Shown in pieces: positions 17,326-26,511 of a stretch of DNA of 40,204 nt (position 1 is the stretch's first letter; the number at the start of each line of letters is the position of its first letter). Origin of the DNA: Chloroflexota bacterium (GTDB lineage Bacteria > Chloroflexota > Dehalococcoidia > SM23-28-2 > RBG-16-64-32); assembly GCA_022574655.1 (NCBI GenBank), contig JACZRQ010000012.1, positions 1 through 40,204 on the forward strand. Reading direction: 5' to 3'. The notes below the pieces were generated by a model that was not told the DNA's origin, did no database searches, and saw only the letters and a list, made by a program, of their open reading frames with translations. The translations under genes were made by a program, and so were the position numbers.

Positions 17326-17589
17326 CTACGGCGGATCGTGCTTCATACCACCCGGATTCAGTGGATTACACCGTAGCAACCGCCAGACCGTCTTCGCCGT
17401 AGCCCTGACGAACCCGTATCGACGGTACGACTCGAGTCCGTACTCCGAGCAACTGGGTACGTACCGGCAGCGCGAACCAAGCCTGGGCGAAACCCTCTCC
17501 CGATAAGTCAGTATGAACCGCTCCGCAAAACGCGAAGCGGGAGACAACTTCCGCGCCGCCGTTTCGCTACTCATCTTGTCCATCACCAT
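17326..17589 (-). CDS. yidD: Membrane protein insertion efficiency factor YidD
   Basis: This 87-residue protein matches YidD: an amphipathic N-terminal helix followed by LTYRERVSPRLGSRCRYVPSCSEYGLESYRRYG, then RCNPLNPGG. The three cysteines and the NPGG element are family hallmarks. YidD helps the YidC insertase place proteins in the membrane. It is usually near rpmH-rnpA-yidC, but here it ends a gene group led by a flavin oxidoreductase, so it has been uncoupled from its usual neighbours. Several methionines near the N-terminus leave the start slightly uncertain. Confidence 0.9.
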   Translation of the reverse strand: MVMDKMSSETAARKLSPASRFAERFILTYRERVSPRLGSRCRYVPSCSEYGLESYRRYGFVRATAKTVWRLLRCNPLNPGGMKHDPP

Positions 17590-17630: not shown

Positions 17631-18011
17631 TCAGACGTTGGGAAGCGCGGGGTCAGGCCCCTCACCGGGGCCGAAGATCGCCATCACGCCGACAGCGCGG
17701 GCTTGAGCATCTCGAAGGAGGATGAGCCGGCCAGGGATCCGGCGAATGCTACCGTCGCTGCAGACGACAGGAAGGTTAGCCGCGGGCTGATCGAGCTTCG
17801 TCTTCCCCTTGCTCACGGCGGCGCGGAATCCATCCCAGTGCTGTTCCCGGTAGTCGTCCGGGACCAACATGTCTAGCGTCTGGCCTATGGCCTTCGCAGC
17901 GTCGTAGCCAAATAGCCTCGCGGCACCCGGACTCCAGAAACGAATGATGCCATCCGCATCCGCCATCACGATCGCATGCGATTCCATCGTCCCTTGGTCC
18001 TCAGCCGTCAT
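17631..18011 (-). CDS. Single PAS-domain protein
   Basis: This 126-residue protein is essentially one PAS domain: IVMADADGIIRFWSPGAARLFGYDAAKAIGQTLDMLVP, followed by the strand pattern PVVCSDGSIRRIPGRLILLRD and VGVMAIFG. It has no output domain, so it would act through a partner protein or as a small ligand or redox sensor. It sits 10 bases downstream of a small protein of unknown function in the same minus-strand group as the flavin oxidoreductase. PAS domains of this sequence type often bind heme or flavin, but no binding residue can be assigned here. Confidence 0.8.
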   Translation of the reverse strand: MTAEDQGTMESHAIVMADADGIIRFWSPGAARLFGYDAAKAIGQTLDMLVPDDYREQHWDGFRAAVSKGKTKLDQPAANLPVVCSDGSIRRIPGRLILLRDAQARAVGVMAIFGPGEGPDPALPNV

Positions 18012-18021
18012 GGCGGAGTGA

Positions 18022-18348
18022 CTACAGCTCGTGCTTGGCTAGCGAATCGACCGCAAACTCGAAGTAGGTGACCGCCTCCGAGAAAATGAACTCCTCGCGG
18101 TCGTAGATCACCATCATCGAGCCGTCCGACTCCTGCACCAGGTGCGCACCGAGCCGCGGAAAGAAGAGGATGCTGCGCAGCGATTCCGTTCCTTCCAGCA
18201 TCTCCGGTTTGCGAGACAGAAGCTCCAGATAGGCGTCCGCGCAACGATGAACCACGTCTGGATAGTCGCCAGAGCGCAGCGAGGCTTGCGCCTGCGTCAA
18301 CGATTCCCGTAGCGCGTCATCTTTGATGCGCTTGAGCTTTGCTGGCAT
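18022..18348 (-). CDS. Unknown small protein paired with flavin oxidoreductase
   Basis: I do not recognise this 108-residue protein. It is predicted mostly helical in the first half (LKRIKDDALRESLTQAQASLRSGDYPDVVHRCADAYLELL), a pattern like a TPR or SUKH-type helical pair. It then has a short beta segment (LVQESDGSMMVIYDREEFIF) and a final helix. There is no signal peptide, cysteine motif or catalytic signature. Its start codon directly abuts the stop of the flavin oxidoreductase, so translation is coupled and the two products may work together, for example as an accessory or substrate-loading subunit. That role is inference only. Confidence 0.75.
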   Translation of the reverse strand: MPAKLKRIKDDALRESLTQAQASLRSGDYPDVVHRCADAYLELLSRKPEMLEGTESLRSILFFPRLGAHLVQESDGSMMVIYDREEFIFSEAVTYFEFAVDSLAKHEL

Positions 18349-19602
18349 CTAGATCGACGAGTTGATCAGGTGTTCGACACCCTCGAGCTGCTTCGCGCGC
18401 CAGCGCTGGTGCTTCTCGTGCCGCTCGTTGAACTCCGGCAACACCTTTGTACCCACTCGATAGATCGAGTCCATGATATCTTCGTGCGTTCGCGCGCCGC
18501 ACTGCGCGACGAAGATCATCAGGTCGAGGTGCGAATCTTCGTACTTCGTCAGCGTCTCGCGAACGAACTCCGGAGTGCCGATGCAACCCCCTCGCTGCGC
18601 CGCACGCCACAACGCACGCGTGACCTCGTCCTCGGGCTCCTCCTTCTGCGCGCCAGCCTGGAAACCGCCGAAGCTGCGGAATCCCTCGCCAAGCGGACCC
18701 CATCGCTCCTCCTCCGGCTTCTCGATGAACTGCTTGTAGATGTTCATCTTGCCCGGGCGGTGAGAACCGCCGGTGAACGGGTTGTAGTAGTAGCCGAGCG
18801 AATAGGCGAAGAACTGTGCGCCCTCAGCGCCCTTCGCGATCGCTTCCTCGTCCGAGTCGAAACAGGAAAGGATCGACAGGATCGCCAGCGCCGGGTTGAT
18901 CGCCTTTCCGATCGGCGTACACTCTTCACGTACCAATTCGTAGTAGTCTTCGACACGCTCCTTCGCCTCGTCCGGCGTCTCGAACGCGAAGCCCAGTGAG
19001 CCCATGCCAAGACGGGCGGCAACCATCGTCGTCTCCCGGCGAGAAGCGGCCACCCAGAGCGGCGGATGCGGCTTCTGAAGGGGCTTCGGGACCACGTTTC
19101 GCGCCGGCATACCAAAGTACTCACCCTCGGTGCCGCTGTACGGTGTCTCTGTCATCATCTTCACGCATTCGCGCGTCGCCTCCTCCCACATCCGCTTCTT
19201 CTCTTCGCGGCGAATCCCGAAGCCGTCCATCTCCATCACAGAACCGGACTCCCCCGTACCGAACTCGACACGCCCGTCTGAGATCAGATCCAGCGTGGCG
19301 ATACGCTCCGCGACGCGTGCCGGGTGGTTGTACCGCGGCGGCATTAGGGCGATGCCGTGACCGAGTCGCATCTTCTTGGTGCGCTGGCTCACGGCCGCGA
19401 GAAACACCTCAGGCGCGGACGAGTGGGAGTACTCCTCCAAAAAGTGGTGCTCTACCTCGAAGACGTATTCAAATCCAACTGTGTCGGCCAGTTCGAGCTG
19501 GTCGAGAGCGTTCTTGAGCAGCTTATGCTCTGCGTCTTCGTCCCACTGATCGCCGTCACGCGGCTTCGGCAGCTGGTGTTCGTAGAAGAGGCCGAACTTC
19601 AT
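18349..19602 (-). CDS. LLM-class (luciferase-like) flavin-dependent oxidoreductase
   Basis: This 417-residue protein has a bacterial-luciferase-type TIM barrel that uses FMNH2 or F420. It starts MKFGLFYEHQLP, followed by the strand-loop LADTVGFEYVFEVEHHFLEEYSHSS, MRLGHGIALMPPRYNHPARVAERIATLDLISDGRVEFGTG and PLQKPHPPLWVAASRRETT, all family landmarks. Such enzymes can oxidise recalcitrant organics and are greatly expanded in SAR202 Chloroflexota. The substrate here is unknown. A GGAGGG lies 4 bases before the ATG at 19602. It is divergent from the diiron-ferredoxin operon and shares a 142-base regulatory region with it, which may mean joint control and perhaps a common substrate. Confidence 0.93.
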   Translation of the reverse strand: MKFGLFYEHQLPKPRDGDQWDEDAEHKLLKNALDQLELADTVGFEYVFEVEHHFLEEYSHSSAPEVFLAAVSQRTKKMRLGHGIALMPPRYNHPARVAERIATLDLISDGRVEFGTGESGSVMEMDGFGIRREEKKRMWEEATRECVKMMTETPYSGTEGEYFGMPARNVVPKPLQKPHPPLWVAASRRETTMVAARLGMGSLGFAFETPDEAKERVEDYYELVREECTPIGKAINPALAILSILSCFDSDEEAIAKGAEGAQFFAYSLGYYYNPFTGGSHRPGKMNIYKQFIEKPEEERWGPLGEGFRSFGGFQAGAQKEEPEDEVTRALWRAAQRGGCIGTPEFVRETLTKYEDSHLDLMIFVAQCGARTHEDIMDSIYRVGTKVLPEFNERHEKHQRWRAKQLEGVEHLINSSI

Positions 19603-19642
19603 TGGGCCCTCCGTATTTTTTGGGGCTCGTTCAGAGGCACAC

Positions 19643-19671
19643 TTAACGTCAACGTAAGGTTGGGGTAAAAT
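19643..19671 (+). promoter_or_regulatory. Promoter of the diiron-ferredoxin operon
   Basis: TTAACG (19643-19648), 17 bases, then TAAAAT (19666-19671). Transcription would begin near 19678, giving a leader of about 67 bases that ends in AAGGAG (19733-19738), 6 bases before the ATG at 19745. Unlike several other promoters here it makes a conventional leadered mRNA. Confidence 0.55.
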
Positions 19672-19744
19672 ATCGCACTAACGGGTAAGGCCGTCAAGCT
19701 AAGTGACCATCCAGTACACTTTGCTCCCATAAAAGGAGATCGCG

Positions 19745-20530
19745 ATGACTCAGGCACTACACGACAGACTTCCACCGAACGGATCGGTGAGGGAACCGCC
19801 CTACCGAAGCATCATGGAACTCTCGTCTGATGAGCGCGCCGAGCTTGACGAAAAACTGGGCGGTGCACAGAACTACAACCCCGTGATCCTCAGGGAGCTG
19901 GCCCGCAAGGACCGCAAATACCTCGCGCCGCTAATCATGGCCATACTCAGCGCCGAATTCCGCGGCATCGACTTCTTTGGCCGTTTCGTCGTCGACATGC
20001 AGTCCTACAACGTGCCGTGGCACATGACGCTGGCCTTCGCGCGACAGACCTTCGACGAGTCACGCCACACCCAGCTCAACATGGACCTCCTCGAACACCT
20101 CGGCTCCGAGGTCGGCGAGTACCCCGACATCATCCTCGGCCCGCAGCGGGACGAAATTCCCGAAGAAGAGTTGGACCCCGCTGTGCTGATGGCTCGGATC
20201 AACGTTGCCCTTGAGGGTTTCGCGCTCACTTCGTTCGAAGCCACGCGAGAGCTGGCGGAGGAGATCGGCGAAGATCTCGTCGAACACTGCCACGACTACA
20301 ACATGGCGGACGAGGTCACACACGTGGCAATCGGAGACTACTGGCTGACACGCCTCTGTGAAGAACAACCCTGGCGCAAGGAACGAGCGCAGGCCGTCCA
20401 AGAAGAGTTCGACAAGATGATGGCGATGGTCCGCGACATGGCGCTGAACTACGCTGGATCGTCCGCGTCCGGAAGCACGAACGGTGAGACCTCCGAAGGG
20501 AACACGACGGCTAAGCCCTCGGCCGGCTAA
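19745..20530 (+). CDS. Ferritin-like diiron carboxylate protein (candidate oxygenase)
   Basis: This 261-residue helical protein keeps the full diiron ligand set of the ferritin-like/bacterial multicomponent type: E71 (SAEFRGIDFF), E105-x-x-H108 (DESRHTQ), E157 (VALEGFA) and E190-x-x-H193 (ADEVTHVAIGD). It should therefore bind two irons and activate oxygen or peroxide. The last 35 residues are a low-complexity Ser/Gly/Thr tail. The gene is followed by a two-cluster ferredoxin and by a second ferritin-like protein that lacks some ligands, an arrangement resembling catalytic plus structural subunits with an electron donor. An oxygenase or oxidase acting on an organic substrate is the most natural reading, but the reaction is unknown. 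A strong AAGGAG precedes the ATG. Confidence 0.85.
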   Translation: MTQALHDRLPPNGSVREPPYRSIMELSSDERAELDEKLGGAQNYNPVILRELARKDRKYLAPLIMAILSAEFRGIDFFGRFVVDMQSYNVPWHMTLAFARQTFDESRHTQLNMDLLEHLGSEVGEYPDIILGPQRDEIPEEELDPAVLMARINVALEGFALTSFEATRELAEEIGEDLVEHCHDYNMADEVTHVAIGDYWLTRLCEEQPWRKERAQAVQEEFDKMMAMVRDMALNYAGSSASGSTNGETSEGNTTAKPSAG

Positions 20531-20539
20531 CCCAATTTA

Positions 20540-20857
20540 ATGGCTTACGTAATCGACCAATCACAGTGCATCAACTGCTCCTGGTGCCGCCGCGAGTGCC
20601 CCACGTCGACGATCCAGTACTACAATCGCGACGAGCGCAAGCACTGGATCGACCCCGAAGGCTGCATCGACTGCGATATCTGCTCTCGCGTCTGTCCAAC
20701 GAAGTGCATCTCCCACCAGCCGGAGGTGCTGCCAACGCCTGAACAGCTCAAGGAAGCGAAAATGCGCGCTCGCACCTGGGCACGCGGCCGCCGCCAGCTC
20801 AAGCTAACCATCCGCTCCTACGTCGACCGCGAGATCGCGCGAAGAGCCAACCTCTAG
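20540..20857 (+). CDS. 2[4Fe-4S] ferredoxin
   Basis: This 105-residue soluble ferredoxin has two cluster motifs: C10-x2-C13-x2-C16-x3-C20-P and C42-x2-C45-x2-C48-x3-C52-P, with an extra C56. The clusters are in the N-terminal 56 residues. The rest (57-105) is a basic helical tail (KMRARTWARGRRQ), unusual for a plain ferredoxin and a possible docking surface. It lies 9 bases after the diiron protein and 2 bases before the second ferritin-like protein, so it is very likely the dedicated electron donor of that pair. Confidence 0.93.
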   Translation: MAYVIDQSQCINCSWCRRECPTSTIQYYNRDERKHWIDPEGCIDCDICSRVCPTKCISHQPEVLPTPEQLKEAKMRARTWARGRRQLKLTIRSYVDREIARRANL

Positions 20858-20859
20858 CG

Positions 20860-21477
20860 ATGCCCGAATTAGCGGTCGATCTACGCAAGGTCGGAGGAGC
20901 ATTCTCCGTCGATGAAGGTGCTCGCCGCCTGATCCATTATCGGTACGCGGAGATCGCCTGCATGGAAGCCGAGGCAGGCTGGGTGGCCACGCTCGCGGCG
21001 CCAAAGCTCAAGATCAGGCTCGCCGAACACACCTACCAATGCGCCCTTCACGCCGACGCCATCGGCCGCCGACTGCCCGAGCTTCGAGTCATGGAGAATA
21101 TCGACATGTCTGTCCCACCGGTTCTGCGCGTGGCGGACGTGCGACGCCCCCCAAACGACGAATTCGCACGCTTCATACAGGAGATGCAGGACCAGGAAGA
21201 AGAGCTGCTCCGGCTAGCGGGCCTCTACCGCGTCCTCAAACCGCACCTTGCGGTCTACTACCGGCACCACATGGCCGTCACAGACCAGGTTTCGGATTCC
21301 CCGACCGTGCGGCTGCTGAAGTTCATCCTCATCGACGAGGAGGAGCAGATCCGCTGGGGCCAGGCGATCTACGAGGAGCTTGCTGATACCCCCGCCAAGC
21401 GCCGAAAGTCGATGGAGTGGCAGACTCACCTTGAGGAGCTGCTGGCGGAGTCCGGCGGCGTCACCGGCGGCAAGTAG
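20860..21477 (+). CDS. Second ferritin-like protein with incomplete iron ligands
   Basis: This 205-residue all-helical protein is built like a ferritin-like four-helix bundle: helix 1 YAEIACMEAEAGW, helix 2 RLAEHTYQCALHADAIGRRL, helix 3 QDQEEELLRLAGLY and helix 4 FILIDEEEQIRWGQAIY. Compared with the E-x-x-H motifs of its operon partner, helix 2 reads C61-x-x-H64 and helix 4 reads E160-x-x-Q163. At least two of the six usual ligands are therefore changed. It could be a structural partner of the first protein, as PaaC is to PaaA in phenylacetyl-CoA epoxidase, or bind a different metal pair. It follows the ferredoxin by 2 bases and is the last gene of the tight three-gene set. Confidence 0.75.
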   Translation: MPELAVDLRKVGGAFSVDEGARRLIHYRYAEIACMEAEAGWVATLAAPKLKIRLAEHTYQCALHADAIGRRLPELRVMENIDMSVPPVLRVADVRRPPNDEFARFIQEMQDQEEELLRLAGLYRVLKPHLAVYYRHHMAVTDQVSDSPTVRLLKFILIDEEEQIRWGQAIYEELADTPAKRRKSMEWQTHLEELLAESGGVTGGK

Positions 21478-22267: not shown

Positions 22268-23050
22268 ATGCTTCTAAAGGATCGAGTCGCCGTCATCACC
22301 GGCGCCGGCAGCGGTATCGGCCAGGGCATCGCGCTCAGGTTCGCGCACGAAGGTGCGAAGCTCGCCCTCGTCGACATTCGACCCGCAGCGCTCGAAGAGA
22401 CCGCATCCAAGGTTAAGGATTCGGGCGCGGACTTCGAGACTTACACGGGCGATGTCTCAATAACAGCGGACGTCGAGTCCTTCTTCTCGCAGACCGTCGA
22501 GCGGTTCGGCCGGGTCGACATCTGCGTCAACAACGCCGGCATCGGCAACCCACCGATGCCGTTGATGTCGATGACCGACGAGGGCTTCGACCAAACTATC
22601 GCCGTCAACCTTCGTGGCGTCTTCCTCTGCATGCGCGCTGCTGCCCAGCGGATGGTCGCCCAGGGTGGCGGCGGACGCATCATTAGCGTCTCCTCGCAAG
22701 CAGGCAAGACCGGCTACCCAATGCTTGGCCCGTACTGTGCTACGAAAGCCGGTGTGATCCTGCTGACACAAACGATGGGCAAGGAACTCGGGCCCCAGAA
22801 GATCACGGTCAACTGCGTCTGTCCGGGCACCATCGACACTCCACTCCTTCGCGGCACTCTCGACCCGATATTGCAGGCGACCGGCGAGACGTTCGAGAAG
22901 TGGGCGCTGAAGAACATGCCCACCATACCGCTCGGCCGCGTCGGCTACCCCGCCGACGTCGCCAAGGTCATCACCTTCCTCGCTTCCGACGAAGCCGACT
23001 ACATGACCGGACAGGCGATCAACATCACCGGCGGCCAGGAGATGCACTAA
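22268..23050 (+). CDS. Short-chain dehydrogenase/reductase (SDR)
   Basis: This 260-residue classical SDR has the cofactor motif T11-G-A-G-S-G-I-G18, the acidic D36 at the end of the second strand (favouring NAD over NADP), NNAG at about 88-91, and the catalytic set S143, Y156 and K160 (YCATK). The C-terminal ITGGQEMH ending is typical of 3-ketoacyl/alcohol SDRs. It oxidises or reduces a hydroxyl/keto group, and the substrate cannot be read. A strong AGGAGGGAG precedes the ATG. It follows the VTT protein in the same direction and precedes thiE by 26 bases. Confidence 0.9.
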   Translation: MLLKDRVAVITGAGSGIGQGIALRFAHEGAKLALVDIRPAALEETASKVKDSGADFETYTGDVSITADVESFFSQTVERFGRVDICVNNAGIGNPPMPLMSMTDEGFDQTIAVNLRGVFLCMRAAAQRMVAQGGGGRIISVSSQAGKTGYPMLGPYCATKAGVILLTQTMGKELGPQKITVNCVCPGTIDTPLLRGTLDPILQATGETFEKWALKNMPTIPLGRVGYPADVAKVITFLASDEADYMTGQAINITGGQEMH

Positions 23051-23076
23051 CCACCCGATCCCTCGACACATCTGCC

Positions 23077-23700
23077 ATGAAAGATCGCCTGAGCGGCCTG
23101 TACGTAATCATCGATCCAGAAGTCGCGCGCGGCCGTGACGAAGCCGAAATCGCCCGCGAAGCGATCGCCGGTGGGGCGCGAATGATCCAACTTCGGGACA
23201 AGACCCGAGCCGAGGCCGCGCAGCTACCGATCGCAAAACGGCTCGCTGACATCTGCCGTGGGAACAACGTGGCGTTCTTCGTCAACGACAACGTCGACCT
23301 ATCGCTCGCATCCGGCGCCGACGGCGTTCATCTCGGTCAGACGGACCATCCGCTAGCAGCCGTTCGAAAGCGCGTCGGGTCAGATCTACTCATCGGCGCA
23401 TCCACGAACAACGTCGAAGAGGCGCTCCAGGCCGAAGCCGACGGCGCGGACTACGTCTCCGTCGGCCGCCTGTTCTCAACCGGATCGAAGGCCGACACCC
23501 GCCCCGCGACCCTGGACACGCTACGAGTCATCAAGGCGGCGGTATCGGTGCCGGTTTGCGCCATCGGCGGCATCAACGAATCCAACATCGACGGCGTGAT
23601 CAACGCCGGGGCGGACATCGTATCCGTCATCGCCGCGGTCGTGTCTGCACCCGATATTCGAGAGGCGGCGCAAACGCTAGCGTCGAGGTTCGAGAACTAA
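23077..23700 (+). CDS. thiE: Thiamine-phosphate synthase ThiE
   Basis: This 207-residue TIM-barrel enzyme joins the pyrimidine and thiazole halves of thiamine. Key segments are LYVIIDPEVARGRDE, MIQLRDKTR, VAFFVNDNVDLSLASGADGVHLGQ and DYVSVGRLFSTGSKADTRP, the latter being the pyrophosphate-binding loop of true ThiE. The ATG at 23077 was chosen because the family sequence begins just there. The frame is open further upstream, but that part overlaps the SDR gene and is unrelated in sequence. It lies on the plus strand, tail to tail with thiO (stops overlapping), apart from the remaining minus-strand thi genes. Confidence 0.9.
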   Translation: MKDRLSGLYVIIDPEVARGRDEAEIAREAIAGGARMIQLRDKTRAEAAQLPIAKRLADICRGNNVAFFVNDNVDLSLASGADGVHLGQTDHPLAAVRKRVGSDLLIGASTNNVEEALQAEADGADYVSVGRLFSTGSKADTRPATLDTLRVIKAAVSVPVCAIGGINESNIDGVINAGADIVSVIAAVVSAPDIREAAQTLASRFEN

Positions 23701-24797
23701 GACGCGAAACGCGCCGGGCTGAAGGGGTCGAGCGGAATGCTCGTCTTGCCGCTCAGGATCAGCTCCGACATCAGTTGACCCGTCACCGGCGCCAGCAGAA
23801 TGCCGTTCCGGAAGTGACCCGTCGCTACGTAGACGTTGTCGCGCTTCGGCAGTCGGCCCATGATCGGCATACCGTCCGGCGAGCCGGGCCGCAGACCCGC
23901 CCATTCGCTCGCAACCTTCGATCGTCGCAACGCCGGTACCAGCCTCCCGGCCATCGCTCTCAACCCCGCGACGCCATCGCTAGTAGTACGTGCCCTGAAC
24001 CCGACGTCCTCAACGGTGGCGCCCGCGAACAGGAAGCCGCTCAGCTTCGGCACCAGGTACCCTTCCTCGCCCCACACTGCATGGTGGAGAACCGTCGACC
24101 GGTACGCCAACATCTGTCCTCGCATCGGCGCCGTCGGCACCTTCACGCTCAACCGCTCCGCCAGCGCCTTCGTCCACGGGCCCGCCGCCAGGACGATCGC
24201 GTCAAAGCCGTTCAGGTCCGCGGAACCCGCTTTCACCCCGGTTAACTTGTGTCCGCTGCTCACGAAACCCGTGAACGCCACGCCCCGTCTAATGTCAGCG
24301 CCGCGTTTCTCGGCCGCGCCGGCGAAAGCTCTCGCCAGAAGCGCCGGGTTCAAGTCCGCATCGCCTGGGGAGAACGTCGCGCCGAGCAACTCATCCGAAA
24401 GCGCCGGCTCCAGATGTCGCAGGTCGCTCCCTTCGACCCACTCCACCCCAGCTTTCCGATGCGTCACTCGCTTCGCAAGCGTTTTCAGGTGCTTCGCACG
24501 CTTCTCGCTCGAGGCCGGCCGGATCAGGCCGCGCGGGCGGTACTCGACGTCGATTCCCGTCTCGCTCTCGAGCTGTTTGATCAAGCGAGGATAAAGCTTG
24601 AAACTGGCCCGCTGCAGACGAACCATTGAGCGCGAGCCGGTTCTGTCGAACGGTGCGATCAGCATTCCCGCGGAGGCAGACGTAGCCTCCTGCGCGATCT
24701 CGCCTCTCTCCAATACGGTGACGTCGGCACCGGCGCGCGCCAGGTAATAGGCGATGGCGCAGCCAATGACGCCCCCTCCCGCAATGACAACTTTCAA
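23697..24797 (-). CDS. thiO: Glycine oxidase ThiO
   Basis: This 366-residue FAD-dependent amino-acid oxidase of the DAO family oxidises glycine to dehydroglycine (iminoacetate) for thiazole synthesis. The Rossmann motif VVIAGGGVIGCAIAYYLARAGADVTVLE lies at the N-terminus, then SAGMLIAPFDRTGSRSM, and near the C-terminus GLRPGSPDGMPIMGR and VYVATGHFRNGILLAP, which contribute to flavin and substrate binding. The use of ThiO rather than ThiH implies aerobic thiazole synthesis. It lies 3 bases after thiS in the minus-strand thiamine operon, confirming the role over a general D-amino-acid oxidase. Confidence 0.92.
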   Translation of the reverse strand: MKVVIAGGGVIGCAIAYYLARAGADVTVLERGEIAQEATSASAGMLIAPFDRTGSRSMVRLQRASFKLYPRLIKQLESETGIDVEYRPRGLIRPASSEKRAKHLKTLAKRVTHRKAGVEWVEGSDLRHLEPALSDELLGATFSPGDADLNPALLARAFAGAAEKRGADIRRGVAFTGFVSSGHKLTGVKAGSADLNGFDAIVLAAGPWTKALAERLSVKVPTAPMRGQMLAYRSTVLHHAVWGEEGYLVPKLSGFLFAGATVEDVGFRARTTSDGVAGLRAMAGRLVPALRRSKVASEWAGLRPGSPDGMPIMGRLPKRDNVYVATGHFRNGILLAPVTGQLMSELILSGKTSIPLDPFSPARFAS

Positions 24798-24800
24798 GCG

Positions 24801-25004
24801 CTAGCCGCCCCCCACGGCTCGAACAACTTCTACCACATCGCCATCCTCCACGCACACCCCCGCCCACGTGCTTCTCGGGACGACCTCGCCGTTAACAGCG
24901 ACCGCGACCTGCTTCGGCTGCACGTCCAGCGTCCGCAGCAGATCGGGCACCGCCTGCCGTTCCTCGATCTCGCGAGGTTTTCCGTTGAGCGTAATCGTGA
25001 TCAT
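24801..25004 (-). CDS. thiS: Sulfur carrier protein ThiS
   Basis: This 67-residue beta-grasp protein carries sulfur as a C-terminal thiocarboxylate for thiazole formation. It begins ITITLNGKPREI, has the middle LLRTLDVQPKQVAVAVNGEVVPRSTW, and ends VEVVRAVGGG, so the essential Gly-Gly tail is present (with one extra glycine). The length is normal. Its ATG overlaps the stop of the upstream TenI/ThiE-like gene, and thiO follows by 3 bases. No ThiF or ThiI gene is visible in the window to load the sulfur. Confidence 0.95.
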   Translation of the reverse strand: MITITLNGKPREIEERQAVPDLLRTLDVQPKQVAVAVNGEVVPRSTWAGVCVEDGDVVEVVRAVGGG

Positions 25005-25657
25005 TAGGGACTACTCACCCCAAGGGCGTTCCAGAGCTGCGCTGCCGCCTCACGCCGGTTGGACGAGCCGAGAATCGCCGAGATCACAGCGACACCCGAG
25101 GCGCCGGCTCGCATCACCTCTGGAACCCGCTGATAGTCTATGCCGCCGATGGCGATCACTGGCACACTAACGACTTCAGTAATCTTTCGTATTAAGTCGA
25201 CCCCGGCTGGCGCTCTACCCAGATGGGAGTCTGTTTCGTAAATCGGTCCCGCGACGACGTAATCTGCGCCCGCTGACATCGCCCGCTCGGCTGCTCCCAC
25301 GGAGTGCACGGACCGACCGACGATAAGCCCTGGTTGCACCTCCGGCATCCACTCATCCTCTGGAAGGTGGATACCTTGCGCCGTCGGCCGTCCCACCGTG
25401 TCAGCTGGAATGACGCCGTCACGCCAAGTATTGAGAATGAGCAACGCACGATCGCGGGTCTTAGCTCTGACGCGAGCCAGCAGCATGGTGTCACGCAGGT
25501 CTTTCTCCCTGAACTGGACGACATTCACACCGCCATCGATCGCCTCATCGACGGCGCTGACCAAGCCATCCTCGCCGGTCAATCGCCGGTCTGTGACCAG
25601 CATGAGGCATGGGCGCGGAAGCCGAGCATTCGTCCCCGCATCAGTCGGCGAGGTCAC
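25004..25657 (-). CDS. tenI: ThiE-like paralogue, probably thiazole tautomerase TenI
   Basis: This 217-residue ThiE-superfamily TIM barrel contains [29 protein letters not shown] and [17 protein letters not shown]. Two features separate it from the thiE at 23077: the motif [11 protein letters not shown], which fits the SVHS segment carrying the catalytic histidine of TenI, and [13 protein letters not shown] in place of the phosphate-binding loop of ThiE. In known pathways TenI converts the ThiG product to the aromatic thiazole. Position between thiG and thiS, with 4-base overlaps or shared bases on both sides, fits that step. Residual ThiE activity cannot be excluded. Confidence 0.75.
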
Positions 25658-26460
25658 GCCGGTCGGGCGACGCCCTCGACCGGACTCGACGCTTCCGCCA
25701 GCTCCTTGCGGGGGATCCGGCCAGCGACGTACGCCCGCCGCCCCGCTTCCACGCCAAGCTTGAAGCCCGCAGCCATCCCCACGGGATCTTGCGCCTGCGC
25801 GATCGCCGTGTTGACGAGCACGGCATCAGCGCCGATCTCGAGCGCCAGCGACGCTTCGGACGGCGCACCGAGCCCCGCATCGACGACTACCGGCACCTTC
25901 GCGTTCTCAACTATGATCTGTATCTCCTCCAGCGTGAAGATGCCGCGACCGGACCCGATCGGCGAACCGAGCGGCATCACGGTGGCGCAGCCGGCTTCCT
26001 CCAGGTGACGCGCCAGGATCGGGTCCGCATGGATGTACGGCAGGACCACGAACCCTTCGTCCACAAGCGTGCGCGCCGCTTCCAGCGTGCCGACCGGATC
26101 GGGCAGCAAGTACTTCGGATCGGGGATGACTTCCAGCTTCACCCAGTTGGAGCCGGTCAGTTCACGTGCCAGACGGGCCGTGAAGAGCGCCTCATCCACG
26201 GTTCGGCAGCCAGCTGTGTTCGGAAGGATCGTGTAGCGGTCCCAGTCCAGGTGCTCCATCAGGTTCTCTTCGTCCGCCTTCGTCCGGCCGTTCTCATCGA
26301 GCGGAAGACGGCGTATGGCGACCGTCACCATCTCCGCTCCGGACGCGTCGATCGCGTCCCGCATGTCGTCCATCGTTCGGTACTTGCCGGTCCCGACGAT
26401 GAGCCGCGACTTGAACGTCTTGTCGGCGATAGTCAGTTTGTCGTCATGTACGTTTGTCAC
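25654..26460 (-). CDS. thiG: Thiazole synthase ThiG
   Basis: This TIM-barrel enzyme builds the thiazole phosphate from DXP, dehydroglycine and ThiS-thiocarboxylate. Family segments are [36 protein letters not shown] (with the Schiff-base lysine), [13 protein letters not shown] and [32 protein letters not shown] prefer the GTG at 26460 (268 residues), because AGAGGA lies 4 bases upstream and the family sequence starts right after it. An upstream GTG at 26490 would add 10 residues. It overlaps the TenI-like gene by 4 bases and follows thiC by about 50. Confidence 0.93.
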
Positions 26461-26511
26461 TATGTCCTCTAATCTAGGCGGGCGTGTCACGAATGAGCGC
26501 GAACGAACCCC

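Follow-up and report, generated by a model that had tools for sequence, protein, structure and literature searches.

The stretch of DNA analysed here (the window) is 40,204 nucleotides of contig JACZRQ010000012.1 from a Chloroflexota bacterium and contains three adjoining genes on the + strand, here called A, F and B. A (19745-20530) encodes a 261 aa protein of the DUF455 family (PF04305), the presumed catalytic diiron subunit; F (20540-20857) encodes a 105 aa bacterial-type 2[4Fe-4S] ferredoxin with matches to Fer4 families and a basic C-terminal tail, the presumed electron donor; and B (20860-21477) encodes a 205 aa metal-poor homologue of A, the putative partner subunit. The gaps of 9 bases between A and F and 2 bases between F and B suggest that all three are carried on one transcript. 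An initial interpretation made from the letters of the window (the sequence-only reading) had proposed a three-gene operon at 19745-21477, and its coordinates proved exact. On the - strand lies a gene for a luciferase-like flavin or F420 oxidoreductase (LLM, 18349-19602; PF00296, E 9e-45), with a gene for a companion protein of 108 aa that has no Pfam match (18022-18348, - strand). The 142 bases from 19603 to 19744 form an intergenic region common to LLM and A-F-B in the window's lineage and carry promoter-like sites on both strands (+ 19643-19671 and - 19697-19669); three such sites, versus 0.3 expected, were seen in the 2 kb scanned, all being matches from a consensus scan only. CofD was tried as a marker for F420 and set aside as not discriminating, as it also matches in E. 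coli. Elsewhere in the window a single-domain PAS protein (PF00989) is encoded at 17634-18011, two genes from LLM, and an ORF on the - strand at 17326-17589 resembles, by eye, the small membrane-insertion factor YidD. Thiamine-biosynthesis-like ORFs were noted by eye at 22900-26490 (ThiE-like at 22900, ThiO-like oxidase at 23697 and ThiS-like at 24801).

Protein A scores 45.3 bits against DUF455, for which the cut-off is 34.3, and is thereby placed in the family. All 11 of its homologues in alignment A1 also match DUF455 (E up to 0.1), and more distant homologues give matches below the cut-off. The complete E, ExxH, E, ExxH diiron set that the sequence-only reading attributed to A is present as E71, E105xxH108 (DESRH), E157 and E190xxH193 (DEVTH). 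These six residues are invariant in the class that was searched, as is R107 (36-38 copies of A cover each column), and the ligands are kept in 13-14 of 14 distant fused relatives. This invariance, nearly complete even in the distant fusions, argues that the ligand set is not the product of chance. No solved structure related to A or B could be detected by sequence, and the structures predicted for A from four sequences (mean pLDDT 38.8) and for B from its single sequence (mean pLDDT 38.3) were too poor for geometry or contacts. No functional study of DUF455, PF04305 or COG2833 was found among the titles and passages of the searchable literature.

The ferredoxin has one CxxCxxCxxxC motif at residue 10 and another at residue 42, and its tail contains 12 K/R versus 4 D/E. 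None of the eight cysteines varies among the 40 copies compared. The dedicated, basic-tailed ferredoxin 9 bases from A that had been described earlier is thus as claimed in motifs, tail and spacing.

Protein B shows 54-83% identity to its homologues in alignment A2 and does not reach the cut-off for DUF455, to which four of the 11 A2 members give weak matches. Its other low matches, PARG among them, were sub-threshold and were discarded. Homology between A and B was indicated by a profile comparison that included more relatives and the fused ones (88% probability, E 2.9e-6), although a smaller comparison with 11 rows on each side did not detect it (4% probability). The positions of B that correspond to the metal site are occupied by E31, C61, H64, K127, E160 and Q163. 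It had been claimed that B is a related bundle with two changed ligands, C61 and Q163; both changes and the relationship to A hold, but a third, K127, had been missed. Position 61 is D in 23 of 31 relatives and position 163 is H in 28 of 31, so that C61 and Q163 are for the most part peculiar to the lineage of the window, whereas K127 is invariant in all 32 copies and lies, in the profile alignment, opposite the metal-binding E157 of A. The lysine can therefore be taken as the defining ligand loss in B, and its substitution for a carboxylate of the third helix would be expected to abolish a normal diiron site.

A scan for close relatives recovered four Chloroflexi MAG contigs. In a set of 148 relatives' genomes A was present in 12, the same 12 also carry B, and ORF searches showed that F and B adjoin A in all 12 of these loci. 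When 393 genomes of the class were searched with a B profile, 31 were found to be carriers. Within the searched class, one family includes four genomes with 21-30 reductive dehalogenase matches each, which points to the Dehalococcoidia (Chloroflexota); the carriers are soil and marine bacteria of a single class. The sequence-only reading was to be abandoned if the three genes did not co-occur elsewhere. They do: A, F and B are adjacent on one strand in 31 of 31 carriers, one genome having the set split over two contigs. The gene order is AFB in 21 loci, AABFF in seven (L096, L099, L102, L104, L105, L106 and L108, where both A and F are doubled around a single B), ABFF in two and ABF in one, with one contig-broken case in addition. 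This linkage spans seven families with otherwise different surroundings, and in one of them, f38, A and F are duplicated in most loci. Evolutionary distances of A and B covary with r 0.95 and those of A and F with r 0.88, values that shared species history alone would raise. Viral contigs and plasmids yielded no close relative and only one distant DUF455 protein. In ten f38 genomes (loci L050, L096, L099, L102, L104-L108 and L110) a gene for a conserved 82 aa protein with several cysteines (MAKRWRPPFNF...FTPREELK) lies between A and B.

In other Chloroflexota the two bundles occur as single-gene fusions of about 424-623 aa in which a B-like domain is followed by an A-like one. The A half keeps its ligands and the B half varies. 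A protein encoded on a Geobacillus plasmid and annotated as DUF455 was also recognised by the A profile, with E 4e-35, and a weak B-like stretch precedes the matching part. In one genome (G106) the operon and a fusion occur together. The existence of these fusions suggests that the separate A and B proteins associate physically. Among the fusions examined none has an adjacent ferredoxin gene. Where A and B are unfused, as in the loci described above, the ferredoxin is a constant member of the set.

The genes around the operon are less constant. Ten carrier genomes, drawn from four families, have an LLM gene no more than about 0.6 kb away from A-F-B, and in seven of them (L046, L047, L049, L094, L097, L100 and L111) it is co-directional with the operon. 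The earlier description of A as divergent from a luciferase-like gene thus applies to the window, where LLM is on the opposite strand, but does not extend to all of its relatives. Close LLM homologues are also found in genomes that lack A-F-B, which makes the link a facultative one, and because these genomes contain many LLM paralogues some of the adjacency could be due to chance. The 108 aa protein is found beside LLM in six loci (the window, L047, L051, L094, L097 and L111) with E 1e-14 or better. A P450 gene lies beside A-F-B in three genomes (G092, G527 and G554), and homologues of a MarR-type gene identified in L046 lie beside it in five further genomes, two families being represented in all. 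ETF genes near A-F-B in G113 were considered as partners and set aside, as they are not adjacent in the congener G558.

A match to COX1, subunit I of haem-copper oxidase, was found in 30 of 31 carriers versus 201 of 362 non-carriers (p 1e-6, a value that takes no account of kinship). A 2-oxoacid:ferredoxin oxidoreductase was found in eight of the nine carriers tested, with two matches in the genome of the window. This pattern fits an enzyme that uses O2 in cells with ample reduced ferredoxin, although it is not proof of one.

Taken together these data suggest that A-F-B is probably a ferredoxin-dependent heteromeric diiron oxygenase in which A is catalytic and B structural. Two irons would be bound within the four-helix bundle of A and O2 activated there; for such a putative ferritin-like bundle with converging ligands, the ligand pattern and the placement in DUF455 offer indirect support. 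B, a paralogous bundle whose metal site would have been lost through the E to K change in the third helix, may serve as a structural or docking half. The low-potential 2[4Fe-4S] ferredoxin is probably reduced by 2-oxoacid:ferredoxin oxidoreductases and would pass electrons straight to the diiron site of A as held by B, with no dedicated NAD(P)H flavin reductase in between. The site would then insert oxygen into a small molecule or desaturate it, and the likely product, hydroxylated, epoxidised or desaturated, may in some lineages be handled together with the luciferase-like oxidoreductase or a P450. What the data show is the linkage of the genes, the conservation of the A ligands and of the ferredoxin cysteines, the homology of A and B and the B-A fusions; we infer the binding of iron, the contact between A and B, the route of the electrons and the class of substrate. 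The oxygenase chemistry, and with it the undescribed oxygenase that the sequence-only reading had considered possible, is suggested by analogy of motifs and by the gene neighbours, LLM and P450 being both O2-linked enzymes and counted for this reading on that ground.

The same ligand pattern, with its two ExxH pairs, may also be compared with that of rubrerythrins. Ferritin-like proteins are known that couple peroxide reduction to an electron carrier, and A-F-B could be a ferredoxin-fed oxidase or peroxidase of this type that removes O2 or peroxide and is not an oxygenase. The sub-threshold match of B to the Ferritin family (E 0.019) and the near restriction of the operon to oxidase-bearing genomes are in keeping with this. 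However, none of the window proteins matches the Rubrerythrin family of Pfam at E up to 1, and the metal-poor half, together with the LLM, P450 and SDR neighbours, fits the oxidation of a substrate better, so that this explanation appears unlikely. Ferredoxin-fed diiron enzymes that hydroxylate or desaturate tRNA and acyl carriers also exist. The operon might accordingly act on tRNA, a lipid or a carrier-bound acyl chain, or A might be a diiron or Mn/Fe oxidase that generates a radical or a cofactor; the doubling of A and F in g91, with no LLM gene adjacent, would agree with such a role. At the thresholds used there is, however, no MiaE or desaturase match for the window proteins or the A homologues, and the patchy spread over 31 of 393 genomes argues against a housekeeping target. 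We regard an activity of this kind as rather improbable.

A further possibility would be membership of the PaaABCE or benzoyl-CoA epoxidase group with the ferredoxin replacing the reductase. The logic of two bundles and the ligand pattern are shared, and two [4Fe-4S] clusters are present in BoxA too (PMC4498308). Against this, the PaaA_PaaC model gave no match to the window proteins, A and B included, at E up to 1 or to the 22 rows of alignments A1 and A2 at E up to 0.1, and the selected neighbour genes that were scanned included no PaaB, PaaE-type reductase or CoA-pathway gene, which leaves such membership a slim prospect. Finally, A, F and B may be mere neighbours in a conserved genomic region. 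That LLM is separable from A-F-B means that linkage alone is no proof of joint function, but tight linkage across seven families in differing surroundings, the co-duplication of A with F in most f38 loci and the B-A fusions make it very hard to believe that they do not form one functional unit.

If A-F-B is indeed a ferredoxin-dependent oxygenase, the conserved operon suggests a role, partners and key residues for one branch of DUF455, a family of unknown function. The class of the carriers, to which SAR202-like lineages would belong, is thought to oxidise resistant organic carbon by means of flavin monooxygenases and P450s (PMC5395668). We advance tentatively, as a possibility of somewhat under even likelihood, that the operon shows DUF455 in a first functional form. 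On this view the enzyme would be a diiron oxygenase of two bundles, encoded by separate genes in the oxidase-bearing Dehalococcoidia and by one fused gene in other Chloroflexota; it would take its electrons directly from a private, low-potential 2[4Fe-4S] ferredoxin and, coupled to LLM or P450 enzymes, oxidise resistant organics. The kinship with DUF455 is evident from the score of A, above the curated cut-off, and from the matches of the fusions and of the Geobacillus plasmid protein to the A profile. Unlike the DUF455 fusions, however, the operon has A and B as separate genes and includes a ferredoxin of its own, located between the two or next to them.

Bacterial multicomponent monooxygenases also contain a paralogous, metal-free subunit, and one A homologue and one fusion give weak matches to Phenol_Hydrox, the best of them (20.7 bits, in the fusion) lying below the cut-off of 24.4. 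In contrast to these enzymes, no coupling protein, gamma subunit or [2Fe-2S] reductase was identified for A-F-B. The likeness to PaaA and PaaC lies in the pairing of a ligand-complete bundle with a metal-poor homologous one: PaaA and PaaC are subunits of the same fold with 17% identity, iron is bound by PaaA only and the ligands follow the pattern E, ExxH, D/E, ExxH (PMC4498308). In A-F-B likewise a six-ligand site is invariant in one subunit and lost, at K127, in the other. The proposal made at the outset of a PaaA/PaaC-like pair with its own electron donor is therefore reasonable in kind, but A is a DUF455 protein that does not match the PaaA_PaaC model, and neither PaaB nor a PaaE-type reductase was seen among the neighbours scanned. 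The carrier differs as well, being a 2[4Fe-4S] ferredoxin where the Paa system has the FAD/[2Fe-2S] reductase PaaE. In BoxAB electrons reach the diiron oxygenase BoxB from BoxA by way of two [4Fe-4S] clusters (PMC4498308), as they would in A-F-B, but BoxA is an FAD/NADPH reductase while the ferredoxin stands alone, and no metal-poor partner of BoxB is described in that account (PMC4498308). On the best reading A-F-B would work like PaaAC or BoxAB, its nearest working analogies, while being a member of neither group and, if this is right, would add a type of oxygenase with a very simple electron supply.
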